A model generated the notes under the pieces. The model had not been told where the DNA came from and did no database searches. It was given only the letters and a program-made list of their open reading frames with translations. 64,000 nucleotides of DNA from the NCBI GenBank assembly GCA_937927915.1, contig CALGKB010000004.1, positions 248,001 to 312,000 of the forward strand, in the 5' to 3' direction. Positions 28,269-38,016 of this stretch are shown one piece after another. Numbering within the stretch: the stretch's first letter is position 1; the number at the start of each line of letters is the position of its first letter. A program made the position numbers and the translations under genes. Source of the stretch: an uncultured Pseudanabaenaceae cyanobacterium. GTDB taxonomy: Bacteria; Cyanobacteriota; Cyanobacteriia; Pseudanabaenales; Pseudanabaenaceae.

Positions 28269-29399
28269 CTAGCCTGTTGCAGTCTGCAACCTTTCCTGGC
28301 GCAGCGGTAGGGTAAGACTGATCCAGGCGCCCTGGGTTTCGGGGTGATTGCAGGCTTTGATACTGCCTTGGTGGAGGAGGACACATTGTTTGGCAATGGC
28401 TAAGCCCAGTCCACTGCCCCCCACTCCCCCATGGGGACGGGAACGGGCGGGATCGGCACGGTAAAAACGCTCAAAAATATGGGGTAAATCCTCAGGGCTA
28501 AAGCCAGGACCGTAGTCAATGACATCGATCGTGACTGCCTTTTCCGCCGCTGTGACTTCCAGGCGGATGGTCTGTCCAGGGGGGCTAAATTTGATGGCAT
28601 TGTCCAGGAGGTTCAAAAAGAGACGGTGGAGACGGGCTTCATCCCCCTGCAGTTGCAGCTGCTCTGGTCCTCTGTATCCTAGGGTGAGCTGTTTGCGGTG
28701 GGCGAGGGGTTCTAGGGTCTGCCAGACACGCTGTAGCAGTTGGGGCAGGTCGAGGTGGGTAAGAGTGAGGGTAGGTACCTTACCCATGTCCTGTTGTCCC
28801 AAGTCCAGGAGGTCTGCCACGATGTCACTGAGGCGGATAACTTCCTTGAGGAGCCGATCGAGCCAGGGACGCAATTCCGGAGGGCTACGGTCTTGCAAAG
28901 TCTCCACGACCAAGCGCATGGAAGTGAGGGGGGTTTTTAATTCGTGGGCAACGTCAGCAGTCCAGCGATCGCGCTGTTGGGAGAGTTGTACAGCCTCACG
29001 GCGGTCTTCTAAAAAAACTCCTACGTGTCCCTGGGGGAGGGGGATAGTGTGGGCGCGCAAATGCAGACTGGGGAGAGTTTCCAGGGGGTTGGAGGAGACC
29101 AGGTGGTGTACCCAAGACTTTTGCAAGGGGGTTTGGTGCAGACGGGTTTCCTGAATCAGTTGGTCTAGTTCGTAGGAGCGCACCAGCTGCAGTAGGAGGC
29201 GGGGGGCAGCTTTGATGCCCAGGAGTTTTTCCCCTAGGGGATTTGTCCAGTAGAGGCGATTTTCCTGGTCTACCTCCAGATAAGCAATGGGAGCAGCCTG
29301 CAACAAATATTGCCAATGTTCCCTACTAGGGGGGCGTTTTAGTCTCTGCCAAATTGCCACCAAGGCAACGCCCAGCAAGAAGCCCCACAGGAAGTTCAT
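28269..29399 (-). CDS. sphS: PhoR/SphS-like sensor histidine kinase
   Basis: A 376-residue histidine kinase with one N-terminal hydrophobic helix (about residues 2-17), a PAS domain (about 28-135), a HisKA domain with phospho-accepting His152 (DVAHELKTPLTSMRL) and an HATPase domain (FLNLLDNAIKFSPPG, DYGPGFSPEDLPHIFERFYR, GGSGLGLAIAK). This layout, with a single short N-terminal anchor and no large periplasmic sensor, is that of cyanobacterial SphS, which controls the phosphate-starvation response. It overlaps its partner regulator by 4 bp. The stop lies one base from the convergent tRNA-Ser. Symbol inferred from layout and context. Confidence 0.78.
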   Translation of the reverse strand: MNFLWGFLLGVALVAIWQRLKRPPSREHWQYLLQAAPIAYLEVDQENRLYWTNPLGEKLLGIKAAPRLLLQLVRSYELDQLIQETRLHQTPLQKSWVHHLVSSNPLETLPSLHLRAHTIPLPQGHVGVFLEDRREAVQLSQQRDRWTADVAHELKTPLTSMRLVVETLQDRSPPELRPWLDRLLKEVIRLSDIVADLLDLGQQDMGKVPTLTLTHLDLPQLLQRVWQTLEPLAHRKQLTLGYRGPEQLQLQGDEARLHRLFLNLLDNAIKFSPPGQTIRLEVTAAEKAVTIDVIDYGPGFSPEDLPHIFERFYRADPARSRPHGGVGGSGLGLAIAKQCVLLHQGSIKACNHPETQGAWISLTLPLRQERLQTATG

Positions 29400-30139
29400 C
29401 CTAGGCGATAGCCAAAGCCCCTGACGGTGAGCAGATATTTGGGGTCACTGGGGTCTGATTCCAGTTTTTCCCGCAGCCAGCGGATATGAACATCGACGGT
29501 TTTGCTGTCGCCGACAAAGTCAGTGCCCCAGATTTTTTCCAGGAGTTGTTCCCGGGACCACACGCGGCGAGGATGTCCCATAAACAGTTCCAGAATGCGG
29601 AATTCCTTGGGGGAAAGACTGATTTCTTCTCCCCGTACCGTGACGCGGCATTCCTGGGGATACATAGTAATATCACCAAATTTAAGGACATTTCCCTGTC
29701 CATGACTCTCAAAGCGGCGGCGACGCATCAAAGCACGACACCTGGCAATCAGTTCCCCCATGCCAAAGGGTTTGGTCAGATAGTCGTCTGCCCCTACTTC
29801 TAAGCCCACAATGCGATCGGATTCACTGCCTTTGGCACTCAGCATCAGCACAGGGACATGATTACCTTCGTGGCGTAACATCCGACACAGGTCTAAACCA
29901 TTGATATAGGGCAGCATGATGTCTAGGATAATTAGATCGATGGGGTTCGATCGGTGAGCCATACTGAGGGCGGTGTAGCCATCTTCGGCAAGCAGGACCT
30001 CGTACCCTTCCTCCTGCAAGGCTAGGGCAATGGTTTCCCGAATGGTGTCTTCATCTTCCACGATCAGAATACTACCCAGGGTGTACTCTGGTTGCGGCGG
30101 TCTGAGAGCCTCAGTAGAAAGCATAACCAAATCGCTCAT
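29396..30139 (-). CDS. sphR: PhoB/SphR-like OmpR-family response regulator
   Basis: A 247-residue regulator. The receiver domain (about 22-135) has SILIVEDED with the acidic pocket, phospho-acceptor Asp73 (LIILDIMLPY) and the conserved Lys in YLTKPFG; a winged-helix DNA-binding domain follows (SPKEFRILELFMGHPRRVWS, VDVHIRWLREKLE). An N-terminal extension of about 20 residues precedes the receiver. First gene of the pair; the stop overlaps the kinase start (ATGA). SphR-type regulators bind repeats of PyTTAAPyPy; a candidate array lies upstream of lrtA in this window. Confidence 0.8.
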   Translation of the reverse strand: MSDLVMLSTEALRPPQPEYTLGSILIVEDEDTIRETIALALQEEGYEVLLAEDGYTALSMAHRSNPIDLIILDIMLPYINGLDLCRMLRHEGNHVPVLMLSAKGSESDRIVGLEVGADDYLTKPFGMGELIARCRALMRRRRFESHGQGNVLKFGDITMYPQECRVTVRGEEISLSPKEFRILELFMGHPRRVWSREQLLEKIWGTDFVGDSKTVDVHIRWLREKLESDPSDPKYLLTVRGFGYRLG

Positions 30140-33624: not shown

Positions 33625-33737
33625 AGGTCGTTTGTCGTCTCTATACTGCTATTTTAAGGGATTTTACTTCTTATCTTGCTAACTATGACAAACAAAACTA
33701 GCCTAGTGCTGTGGTGTTAGCATATCTTTAAGTTGTC

Positions 33738-34156: not shown

Positions 34157-35461
34157 ATGGTAGCAAGTACTTTTAATACCTCCCGTTCCCAAGCAGTCTT
34201 CAAGCGGGCAAAGGAACTCATGCCAGGGGGAGTCAGTTCCCCAGTGCGGGCATTCAAGTCCGTCGGCGGTGAACCAGTAGTATTTGATCGCGTGGCAGGG
34301 GCTTATGCCTACGACATCGACGGCAACCGCTACATCGACTACATTGGCACCTGGGGACCAGCGATCGTGGGGCACGCCCATCCAGAAGTAATTGAGGCAA
34401 TCCAACAGGCTGCCACCAAGGGGACAAGTTTCGGTGCTCCCTCCGTCTTGGAAAATCAACTGGCAGAGATGGTGATTGCAGCAGTCCCCTCCATTGAGAT
34501 GGTGCGCTTTGTCAACTCCGGCACAGAAGCCTGTATGTCTGTCCTACGCCTGATGCGGGCATTTACGGGGCGGGACAAGGTGATTAAATTTGAGGGTTGC
34601 TATCATGGGCACGGGGATATGTTCCTAGTGCAGGCGGGTTCTGGCGTGGCTACCCTGGGTTTACCGGATTCCCCTGGCGTACCCAAGTCCGTAACTGCTA
34701 ATACCCTCACAGCCCCCTACAATGACCTAGAAGCAGTCAAAGCTTTGTTTGAGGCAAACCCCGACACGATCGCGGGGGTAATTTTGGAGCCAGTGGTAGG
34801 GAATGCTGGGTTTATTATGCCCCAGCCAGGCTTTTTAGAGGGCTTACGGGCCCTGACGCAGCAGTACGGAGCACTGTTGGTATTTGACGAAGTGATGACG
34901 GGCTTTCGCATTGCCTATGGGGGAGCACAGGCAAAATTTGGCGTTACCCCCGACCTCACCTGTTTGGGCAAGATCATTGGGGGTGGACTGCCTGTGGGTG
35001 CCTATGGCGGCAGACGGGAAATTATGGAAATGGTAGCGCCCGCCGGCAGTGTCTATCAAGCGGGGACCCTCTCTGGCAACCCCTTAGCCATGACAGCGGG
35101 GATCAAGACCCTGGAAATTCTACAACGGCCTGGCACCTACGAATATCTAGAAAATATCACAGCTAAACTCAGCCAGGGAATGCTGCAGGTGGCAAGAGAA
35201 ACTGGTCACGCCGCTACAGGGGGACACTTAAGCGCCATGTTTGGCTTATTTTTTACCGATCGTCCTGTGCACAACTACAGTGATGCCAAAACCAGCAATC
35301 TGGCTAAGTTCAGCAAATTCCATCGGGGGATGTTAGAGCGGGGGGTCTATCTAGCCCCTTCCCAATTTGAGGCAGGCTTTACTTCCCTTGCCCACACGGA
35401 GGCGGATGTAGAAGCCACCTTGGCAGCTATGCGGGAAGTCCTGAGTCAGATTGAACCCTAA
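34157..35461 (+). CDS. hemL: Glutamate-1-semialdehyde 2,1-aminomutase
   Basis: Converts glutamate-1-semialdehyde to 5-aminolevulinate, the C5 route to heme, chlorophyll and bilins. The 434-residue class III aminotransferase has [20 protein letters not shown], the acidic PLP motif [12 protein letters not shown] and the cofactor Lys in [17 protein letters not shown]. The start at 34157 gives the usual N-terminal region ([20 protein letters not shown]). It supplies the tetrapyrroles needed for photosystems and any bilin photoreceptors in the window. Confidence 0.97.
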
Positions 35462-35528
35462 AACCGCACTTGGCTGGTAGGGTCACTGCCCCCTCTGGCA
35501 TAATGCAAGTAGAGTGGGGGCAACTACC

Positions 35529-37358
35529 ATGATTGGACGGCTACTAGATGGGCGCTATCGCATCAAGCGATTGCTGGGCAAAGGAGGTTTTGGGCATACC
35601 TATCTAGCAGAAGACACCAAACGACCCGGCAATCCCCCCTGTGTAGTCAAACACCTCCGTCCCCGCAGTACCAATCCTGAATTTCTCGCGATCGCCCGCC
35701 GTCTCTTTGCCACCGAGGCAGAAATTTTGGAAAAGCTGGGGGATTTAGACCAAGTTCCCCGTCTCTACGCCTATTTTGAAGAAGATGAACAGTTTTATCT
35801 GGTACAGGAATTTATCGACGGTCGTCCCCTCAGCGAAGAACTAGAACCCAACAGACCCTGGGACGAACCCCAGGTAATTGATTTTCTGCAAAATATTCTC
35901 TCTATTCTCGTAGCATTGCACAAACGGGGGGTTATTCATCGCGACATCAAACCAGAAAACATCATCAGAAGACATAGCGATCGGAAGTTGGTGTTGATTG
36001 ACTTTGGCGCTGTCAAACAGGTAATGCAGGATAGGGACGATAAAAGTAATGTATCAGTAGCGATTGGCACCTCCGGTTATATTCCAGCGGAACAGGCACA
36101 GGGCAAGCCGAAATTCGCCAGTGATATTTACGCAGTAGGCATGGTAGCAATTCAGGCACTTACAGGTGTACCCCCCAGTCACTTCGGGGAAGACAGCGAC
36201 GGGGAAGTGCAATGGCAGATGTGTGTAGATGTAAATTTAATTAGCCCTAATTTGATTGCTATTTTGGAAAAGATGGTAAGAAGAGATTACCGCCAGCGGT
36301 TTGCCACGGCGGAGGAAGTCCTGCAAGCACTAGAAGTAAGCACCTTGGAGATCGCTGCCCACCCTCCGACAGAAGTCATAGGTAGCAAAACTACTTCTCT
36401 GCTTCCCCTCAAACCTTTGCGCATTGCTATGTTATCTCTGGCTCTTCTTACCTTTACAGGCAGTGTTTTCATTGCCCACCATGTCAGAGCTAGTAGCTGC
36501 AGGGAGTTGCGTGCCTGTCGCGCTGTGCCCAAGGGGGTTTTTCGCTTTAGCAGTGGCACCAGTTGGCAACCTATACGGGAACGACTAGAGAAGGAATTAA
36601 AAGTGACTCACCCAGATTTAGTCTTTTCCTTTATCAAACCCCTCGACGGTCAGCCCAGCAGTGGTAAAGCGATCGAAATGCTACTAGACGGCGAGGTAGA
36701 TTTTGCCTTGATTTCCCGTCCTTTGGAGCCAGAAGTGTGGGATAAAGCGAAAGCGAGGGGCATTGAATTACAACAGGAGAAGGTAGGGATCGGGGGTTTG
36801 GCGGTAGCTGTCCATCCTGATGTCAATATTTCTGGCTTGACCCTAAAGCAAATACGGGATATTTACTTGGGCAGAGTCACAAACTGGCAAGAGGTGGGGG
36901 GCAAGGATTTGGCAATTAAACCGATCGTGCGTCCCAGTGTGTTGGACCGGGGGGCAAAGTCTATCCTAGGGGATGGTATCAGAAGTTATGCACTCCCCTT
37001 TTCTGTCGCCAGGGTAAAAACACCCGAGGAAGGGATAGAGCGGCTCAAAAGCAACCCAGGCTCGATATTTTGGGCTTCGCTGGGGATTATGAGCAAAGCC
37101 TGCGATGTGAAAATCATTGCTATTGGTCTCAGTCCCGACAAACTGCTCTCCCCCGTTTTGAATAACAAAGACTGTCCCCGCCCAATCAATGTGGCAGCCC
37201 TCAGCAGTGGTGACTATCCTGTGACCAGTTTCATGGTAGTTGCCTTCAAAAAGAATGACAAACGATCATGGATAGCTGGTACAACCTATGCCAAATTGTT
37301 GCGGACAAAGGAGGGAACCCAAATGTTTGATGAAGAAGGGTATGTCAGTTTGAAATAG
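35529..37358 (+). CDS. Ser/Thr protein kinase with extracytoplasmic PstS-like domain
   Basis: A 609-residue membrane kinase. Residues about 8-270 form a Hanks-type kinase: glycine loop GKGGFG (17-22), Lys41 (CVVKH), catalytic HRDIKPEN (Asp139) and DFG at 158-160, all intact. A membrane helix follows at about 298-316. Residues about 336-609 resemble a PstS-like phosphate-binding domain: FRFSSGTSW, SSGKAIEML, DFALISRPL, LTLKQIRDIYLGRVTNW and SGDYPVTSFMVV. The topology puts the kinase inside and the binding domain in the periplasm. ATG 35529 is chosen over GTG 35514. Phosphate or another oxyanion may be sensed; this is inference. Confidence 0.87.
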   Translation: MIGRLLDGRYRIKRLLGKGGFGHTYLAEDTKRPGNPPCVVKHLRPRSTNPEFLAIARRLFATEAEILEKLGDLDQVPRLYAYFEEDEQFYLVQEFIDGRPLSEELEPNRPWDEPQVIDFLQNILSILVALHKRGVIHRDIKPENIIRRHSDRKLVLIDFGAVKQVMQDRDDKSNVSVAIGTSGYIPAEQAQGKPKFASDIYAVGMVAIQALTGVPPSHFGEDSDGEVQWQMCVDVNLISPNLIAILEKMVRRDYRQRFATAEEVLQALEVSTLEIAAHPPTEVIGSKTTSLLPLKPLRIAMLSLALLTFTGSVFIAHHVRASSCRELRACRAVPKGVFRFSSGTSWQPIRERLEKELKVTHPDLVFSFIKPLDGQPSSGKAIEMLLDGEVDFALISRPLEPEVWDKAKARGIELQQEKVGIGGLAVAVHPDVNISGLTLKQIRDIYLGRVTNWQEVGGKDLAIKPIVRPSVLDRGAKSILGDGIRSYALPFSVARVKTPEEGIERLKSNPGSIFWASLGIMSKACDVKIIAIGLSPDKLLSPVLNNKDCPRPINVAALSSGDYPVTSFMVVAFKKNDKRSWIAGTTYAKLLRTKEGTQMFDEEGYVSLK

Positions 37359-37359
37359 G

Positions 37360-38016
37360 ATGGCACTCGATCGTTTTTTAGACCTCTTTTTACAAAGAAA
37401 ATGCCCTCTCTGTGGGCGTTCCACCCCTGATTTTGTTTGCATATATTGCAGTCGTGCTCTCTTAGCCTGTCAGGCAGCTCAATTTTGTGAGCTAAAAACT
37501 CCGCTACCCCTTTTTCGCTGGGGGGTCTATGACGATGCCTTGAAACGAGCGATCGCTACCTGTAAGTACAACCATCAACCCCGTATTGCTACTTTTTTAG
37601 GACAGCAGATGGGCATCAGATGGCAAAAAGAGAAAGATACGCAGAAGTTACCTAAGATGGCAGTGGTACCCATACCTTTACACCCAGACAAATTGAAACA
37701 GCGGGGGTTTAATCAGGCAGAACTATTGGCGCGGGGTTTTTGTGATATAACCTCTATGCCCTGTCGTCCCGACTTGTTGCAACGGGTCAAAAATACTAAG
37801 CCCCAGATGGAAACCAAAAGTGTACAGGCACGAAAAGATAACTTAGATGGCGCTTTTATCACTGTTAAAAATAAGACAAAACAACCCATCCTTCTAGTGG
37901 ATGATATTTATACCAGTGGGGCTACAATGACTGCAGCAGTGACAACTCTCACCCAGGCTGGTTACAAAATAGGTGCTATGCTTGTCTTAGCGCGGACAGG
38001 GTTACACGATCGTTAA
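37360..38016 (+). CDS. comF: ComF family phosphoribosyltransferase-like protein
   Basis: A 218-residue ComF-family protein. Two CxxC-like pairs near the start (KCPLCGRSTPDFVCIYCSRA) form a zinc finger, and the PRPP-binding loop PILLVDDIYTSGATM marks the type I phosphoribosyltransferase fold; HPDKLKQRGFNQAELLARG is the conserved central part. ComF proteins are needed for natural transformation in several bacteria, perhaps in handling incoming single strands. It begins one base after the kinase stop and ends 2 bp before the methyltransferase, so these form an operon. Confidence 0.9.
   Translation: MALDRFLDLFLQRKCPLCGRSTPDFVCIYCSRALLACQAAQFCELKTPLPLFRWGVYDDALKRAIATCKYNHQPRIATFLGQQMGIRWQKEKDTQKLPKMAVVPIPLHPDKLKQRGFNQAELLARGFCDITSMPCRPDLLQRVKNTKPQMETKSVQARKDNLDGAFITVKNKTKQPILLVDDIYTSGATMTAAVTTLTQAGYKIGAMLVLARTGLHDR

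Follow-up and report, generated by a model that had tools for sequence, protein, structure and literature searches.

A Ser/Thr kinase fused to a PstS-fold domain

The window, that is, the whole stretch of 64,000 nucleotides of Pseudanabaenaceae DNA that was analysed, encodes a protein in which a Ser/Thr kinase, a transmembrane (TM) helix and a solute-binding protein (SBP) domain follow one another in a single chain, with the following features:

35529..37358, + strand: kinase-TM-SBP fusion gene, 609 amino acids (aa) (open reading frame and translation; orthologs in two congeners)
35556..36326, + strand: domain of a Hanks-type Ser/Thr kinase with all catalytic motifs, aa 10-266 (Pfam PF00069, E 3.6e-36)
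36417..36473, + strand: one TM helix predicted from hydropathy, aa 297-315, with the kinase assigned to the inner side
36534..37355, + strand: PstS-fold (PBP_like_2) domain, aa 336-609 (Pfam, AlphaFold model, Foldseek)

The reading frame extends from an ATG at 35529 to a stop codon ending at 37358; an alternative GTG start is open at 35514, and the orthologs instead start with MIGRLLDGRY or MINNLLDGRY. Within the region matched by Pfam Pkinase, GKGGFG at residue 17, VVK at 39-41, HRDIKPEN at 137, DFG at 158 and SDIYAVG at 198 are all present, and the profile together with the Gly loop, Lys, HRD and DFG predicts a Hanks-type enzyme. Hydropathy analysis revealed one TM segment at about 297-315, preceding the SBP domain, which is recognised by Pfam PBP_like_2 (aa 377-571, E 7.3e-19, above the cut-off). 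The NCBIfam model TIGR02136 aligned over aa 346-607 (E 2.6e-21) with 76.1 bits, not reaching its cut-off of 206.6, and a Pfam scan of the fusion found no TPR domain. With KPLR on the N-terminal side of the helix and a Cys-bearing domain on its C-terminal side, the kinase would lie inside and the SBP domain outside. The initial annotation had described an intact Hanks kinase joined through one helix to a PstS-like domain, and Pfam, hydropathy, AlphaFold and Foldseek agree with this description.

The same fusion is found at full length in two congeners (84% and 69% identity), one of which, G387, also has hemL upstream and comF downstream of the gene, as in the window. Nei-Gojobori comparison with the G387 ortholog gave a dN of 0.033 and a dS of 1.9 for the kinase half (dN/dS about 0.02) and a dN of 0.12 and a dS of 1.15 for the SBP half (dN/dS about 0.1), with the linker and TM segment under looser constraint than both domains. 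Because full-length orthologs exist and dN is far below dS in both halves, a chance open reading frame can be ruled out, and purifying selection on kinase and SBP indicates that both halves are maintained. G387 carries in addition a second kinase-SBP paralog (L147:3373-5140, - strand) with a kinase 73% identical, in which kinase and SBP lie in different overlapping frames, reflecting a frameshift, a split gene or an assembly error.

The neighbours of the fusion gene in the window are hemL, comF, a gene for an RsmB/F-like methylase and queA. Neither pst genes (pstCAB) nor a gene for an ABC-transporter permease or ATPase was found near the fusion gene in the window; two pstS-like genes adjoin pst permease genes elsewhere in the genome. 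The initial annotation had also proposed sphR-sphS genes and a candidate Pho box for the window. A histidine kinase and response regulator pair resembling SphS-SphR indeed lies at 28272-30139, 5.4 kb from the fusion gene and with unrelated genes between, but its best models, PnpS/PhoR and PhoB, all score below the equivalog cut-offs. No Pho box above chance was detected at the fusion gene, the nearest match in the window being at 33727, and scanning the window returned ten matches with two mismatches versus 4.9 expected by chance. A promoter scan of 35300-37500 was likewise empty on the coding strand upstream of the gene.

Fold and ligand pocket of the SBP domain

An AlphaFold2 model of the SBP domain, built with 62 family sequences, reached a pLDDT of 93.9 and adopts the type II SBP fold of PstS. 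Foldseek searches with this model retrieved PstS structures with TM-scores of 0.65-0.75, with the phosphate-bound 4gd5 on top, followed by 9l8j, Synechocystis Sll0540. In E. coli PstS, we take the phosphate contacts to be Thr10, Ser38, Asp56, Arg135 and Ser139-Gly140-Thr141; these residue letters were confirmed on the MG1655 gene, and alignment against E. coli PstS located their counterparts in the window copy:

36558..36560, + strand: T344, corresponding to PstS Thr10 and replaced by Ala in the G387 ortholog (alignment)
36660..36662, + strand: S378, equivalent of PstS Ser38; found in 61 of 62 family rows (alignment)
36717..36719, + strand: R397, aligned with PstS Asp56; 61 of 62 family rows have Arg (alignment)
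36921..36968, + strand: loop of Arg135-Ser139-Gly140-Thr141, aa 465-480 (alignment, model)
36498..37175, + strand: stretch with the four outer cysteines C324, C330, C525 and C549 (alignments)

While the Thr, Ser and Arg contacts are kept in the window copy (R468 being the equivalent of Arg135), Asp56 and the SGT motif are changed. The Asp56-to-Arg exchange is shared by nearly all of the anchored SBP family described below and by TIGR02136-type proteins. In the alignment, SGT is replaced by R-G-A with a one-residue insertion or shift, at a site where most family members have GGT or SGT and where Thr is present in 49 of 62 rows. The RGA loop was modelled without a helix at a pLDDT of 65, whereas a canonical family member modelled as control showed a helix at the SGT loop. 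Comparison of the predicted fold with the PstS ligand site, the check named in the initial annotation, was therefore mixed to negative, with three contact equivalents present and Asp56, SGT and the loop helix missing. The phosphate specificity suggested there is not supported: Arg397, RGA and the Ala in place of Thr344 in G387 speak against it.

Among the three orthologs, 14 of 16 positions of the aa 465-480 loop are invariant, and the four pocket loops together are invariant at 34 of 41 positions versus 116 of 233 in the rest of the domain (Fisher p 5e-5). C324 and C330 occur in all three orthologs, and C525 and C549, a putative disulfide, are nearly invariant throughout the family. Because the pocket loops are conserved despite the altered contacts, we read the window pocket, on alignment and model, as one that is under selection yet no longer a standard phosphate pocket. 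The window copy has lost much of the phosphate-binding site, and phosphate is perhaps not its ligand.

Anchored SBPs and their links to kinases

Searching 386 genomes of the phylum with the SBP domain alone revealed a cyanobacterial SBP family with about 30-37% identity across the whole domain and a nearly invariant Cys pair. The window domain belongs to this family of anchored SBPs by full-length homology, by C525/C549 and by having one TM ahead of the SBP. The majority of its members have about 350 aa and a single N-terminal TM; longer members carry an N-terminal kinase, CHAT, caspase C14, TPR or unknown region followed by a C-terminal SBP, with one TM between the two parts in almost all of them. 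With these architectures and the kinase neighbours described below, the family looks like a reusable receptor module. Two further candidates were set aside: L005, the second, weak PBP_like_2 match of the window genome, is no relative, its sequence looking like that of a TRAP-type (TAXI-like) solute receptor, and the PstS-like proteins that carry DUF4912 differ in architecture and give only weak scores with the window domain. One non-class member of the phylum encodes a sigma70 region-4-like helix-turn-helix N-terminal to a PstS-like domain (L105:2647-4020), perhaps a membrane-tethered regulator.

Kinase-SBP fusions were found in the window genus, in G151/G429 and, with three copies, in G448. 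Parsimony on the SBP tree requires three changes, i.e. three lineages of kinase fusions; the starred (strongly supported) branches alone are compatible with a single origin. The branch leading to the window clade is long (1.83). In the 8.5 Mb genome of G448, the SBP module has expanded strongly (L133-L142) to three kinase, three CHAT and two TPR fusions and two proteins with an unknown N-terminal region.

Gene neighbours of standalone members were surveyed at the 29 best-scoring loci, one per genome, ranked by similarity and not exhaustive. A Ser/Thr kinase gene lies close to the SBP in 25 of these 29 loci, a sample dominated by family f7 whose cases are not independent, with further positive loci in f3, f11, f15, f24, f25 and f27; chance adjacency was estimated at about 10% for a 7 kb flank, from some 30-80 kinase candidates per genome. 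The kinase is within 1.5 kb of the SBP in 13 loci, and 12 more have it in the wider flanks, upstream and on the same strand; the gaps between the genes range from roughly 20 bp to 2.3 kb, several being just 20-35 bp. One of the four negative loci stops at a contig edge. Relatives of the binding domain are thus systematically linked to kinases, which is evidence beyond what sequence alone had offered.

Two arrangements recur. In the first, type A, one to three SBPs lie downstream of a zinc-ribbon kinase whose C-terminal region is multi-TM, read as about four TMs; at the three loci examined closely, this kinase is itself preceded by a LysR regulator. The second, type B, places the SBP next to a kinase that has one TM and lacks a sensor domain. 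LysR regulator, zinc-ribbon multi-TM kinase and anchored SBPs of two unrelated folds are encoded together at L154:3857-10079, L151:102-7485 and L160:7519-12982, the last operon being without a Peripla_BP_6-type SBP. In the kinase tree, the kinases of A pairs form one clade (99) with the G448 fusions as sister (92); the latter carry an N-terminal extension, which in L142, the only one scanned, matched a zinc ribbon weakly. In the SBP tree, the window clade is grouped with the type B SBPs (SH-aLRT 92), and the window kinase falls into a starred clade with four of seven B-pair kinases and kinases of other architectures. With other architectures included in the kinase clade, direct fusion of one ancestral gene pair is unsupported. 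In the window genome itself, a standalone SBP with the anchor follows, after 10 bp, a CheA-like hybrid that has a receiver domain, not a Ser/Thr kinase (L107:4838-10001, - strand), and a zinc-ribbon kinase with a C-terminal multi-TM region is encoded without an adjacent SBP gene.

In type A operons, the PstS-like SBPs share the N-terminus MSQKNETxVLVLxLLITxGLxGGGFWWF with an unrelated ANF/Peripla_BP_6 protein. A 34-position profile of this anchor, which is present in most standalone members of the SBP family, matched in 31 of 40 genomes. The matching proteins comprise PstS-like proteins with and without canonical SGT, Peripla_BP_6 proteins and one OmpA-domain protein, and several of them adjoin a zinc-ribbon kinase. 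In the OmpA-domain protein (L185:340-1932), the anchor is combined with a region that looks like another SBP, and OmpA lies at the C-terminus. The anchor is absent from the window fusion, and in the window genome the profile finds only the standalone paralog. Because a membrane anchor is kept across unrelated folds, it is best explained by docking on a shared partner, most simply the kinase. We tentatively propose, while giving it somewhat less than an even chance, that many cyanobacteria possess a plug-in sensory system, with several interchangeable SBPs of unrelated folds (PstS-like, ANF/Peripla_BP_6, SBP-like with OmpA) docking through the same anchor on the one membrane Ser/Thr kinase that they serve; the window protein would then be a fused offshoot with its pocket retuned to a new ligand.

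A candidate receptor kinase and its closest parallels

The kinase-helix-SBP layout supports the receptor-like design put forward in the initial annotation. From sequence and model, the window protein is probably a one-protein transmembrane receptor kinase for a small ligand, the fused version of an arrangement in which an SBP is encoded beside a kinase. In the unfused arrangement, the membrane-anchored SBP would serve as sensor of the neighbouring kinase. In the fusion, the periplasmic SBP-fold domain would close on a small ligand, the single helix would transmit this closure, and the cytoplasmic Ser/Thr kinase would respond with a change in activity or dimerisation. The ligand is probably an anion or a small polar solute; the phosphate reading is not supported for the window copy. 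The intact kinase, the confidently predicted fold, purifying selection, conserved pocket loops, kinase-linked relatives and the lack of an adjacent ABC-transporter gene all argue for such a receptor. Against it stand the degenerate SGT loop and the long branch, with which ligand binding could have been lost, as well as the missing MSQKNET anchor and the paralogs of the same genome, which do not pair an SBP with a Ser/Thr kinase.

Three other explanations account for parts of these data. The degenerate, low-confidence SGT loop, a shortened family-specific insert and the long branch would also be expected if the SBP-like domain were ligand-free now and helped the kinase to dimerise or to dock to other proteins or the envelope; given that no part of the domain is better conserved among orthologs than the pocket loops and that both domains are under purifying selection, we regard this as unlikely. 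A similarly improbable alternative is a direct periplasmic phosphate sensor, in which the PstS-like domain switches the kinase on phosphate in parallel to SphS-SphR. Arg at the Asp56 position, RGA in an uncertain loop without helix, Ala in place of Thr344 in G387, neither Pho box nor pst linkage and a TIGR02136 score far under the cut-off all speak against it, despite the PstS fold, closest structures that are phosphate-binding proteins (one phosphate-bound), the retained equivalents of Thr10, Ser38 and Arg135 and an SphS/SphR-like pair in the same window. We give very little credence to a binding protein of an ABC importer whose transport is tuned by the kinase: the SBP fold and the two pstS-like genes that adjoin pst permease genes at other sites of the genome would fit, but the SBP is tethered to a kinase, no permease or ATPase gene lies near the fusion gene, and among its relatives the links are to kinases, caspases and CHAT.

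Cyanobacterial genomes encode dozens of kinases each, and few bacterial Ser/Thr kinases have, to our knowledge, a known stimulus. Where a kinase recurrently pairs with a tethered SBP, its stimulus can be sought by testing a soluble domain for ligand binding, and an anchor common to unrelated sensors suggests a general docking rule. Cyanobacterial genes annotated as "phosphate ABC transporter periplasmic phosphate-binding protein" (e.g. in AP018283 and AP018278) may accordingly encode receptors and not transport parts.

The nearest working model for a receptor kinase of this kind is GlnH-GlnX-PknG of Actinobacteria, where a periplasmic SBP encoded in the kinase operon is proposed to control a Ser/Thr kinase across the membrane via a membrane protein (PMC6069109). 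There, GlnH is an aspartate-binding lipoprotein, GlnX a separate protein with sensor-like four-helix bundles and PknG soluble (PMC6069109); in contrast, the window protein unites all three parts in one chain, and instead of an SBP_bac_3-type lipoprotein and a soluble TPR kinase it has a PstS-like PBP_like_2 domain and no TPR. Direct fusions of Ser/Thr kinases to solute-binding domains were listed in 2005 for Streptomyces coelicolor (Glu/Gln type) and Nostoc PCC 7120 (ANF-receptor type) (PMC1262709). These share the direct fusion with the window protein and differ in SBP class, although the ANF type of the Nostoc kinase is the one that shares the anchor with PstS-like SBPs in the operons described here. 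The searched passages of this report and of a survey of cyanobacterial kinases (PMC2176072) make no mention of a fusion of PstS or PBP_like_2 to a kinase, and our search of the open-access literature returned no description of a kinase-PstS fusion, the type A operon or the anchor. While direct SBP-kinase fusions are already known for other SBP types, the PstS-like version thus appears to be undescribed in the open-access literature searched.

With PstS/TIGR02136 proteins (4gd5, 4q8r, 4exl and 9l8j, Sll0540), the window domain shares the fold and most of the sequence profile, but it differs from them in being tethered to a kinase outside a pst operon, in the loss of SGT, in its conserved Cys pair and in its score below the cut-off. 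One cyanobacterial orthocaspase with a PBP-like_2 domain has been listed (PMC8283722), in which the same Pfam domain is joined to a cytoplasmic signalling or effector part, a caspase there and a kinase in the window protein. Two proteins found here, L094:2150-4276 and L095:2483-4546, resemble it in combining caspase C14, a TM and a PstS-like domain, and are possible ligand-gated orthocaspases.
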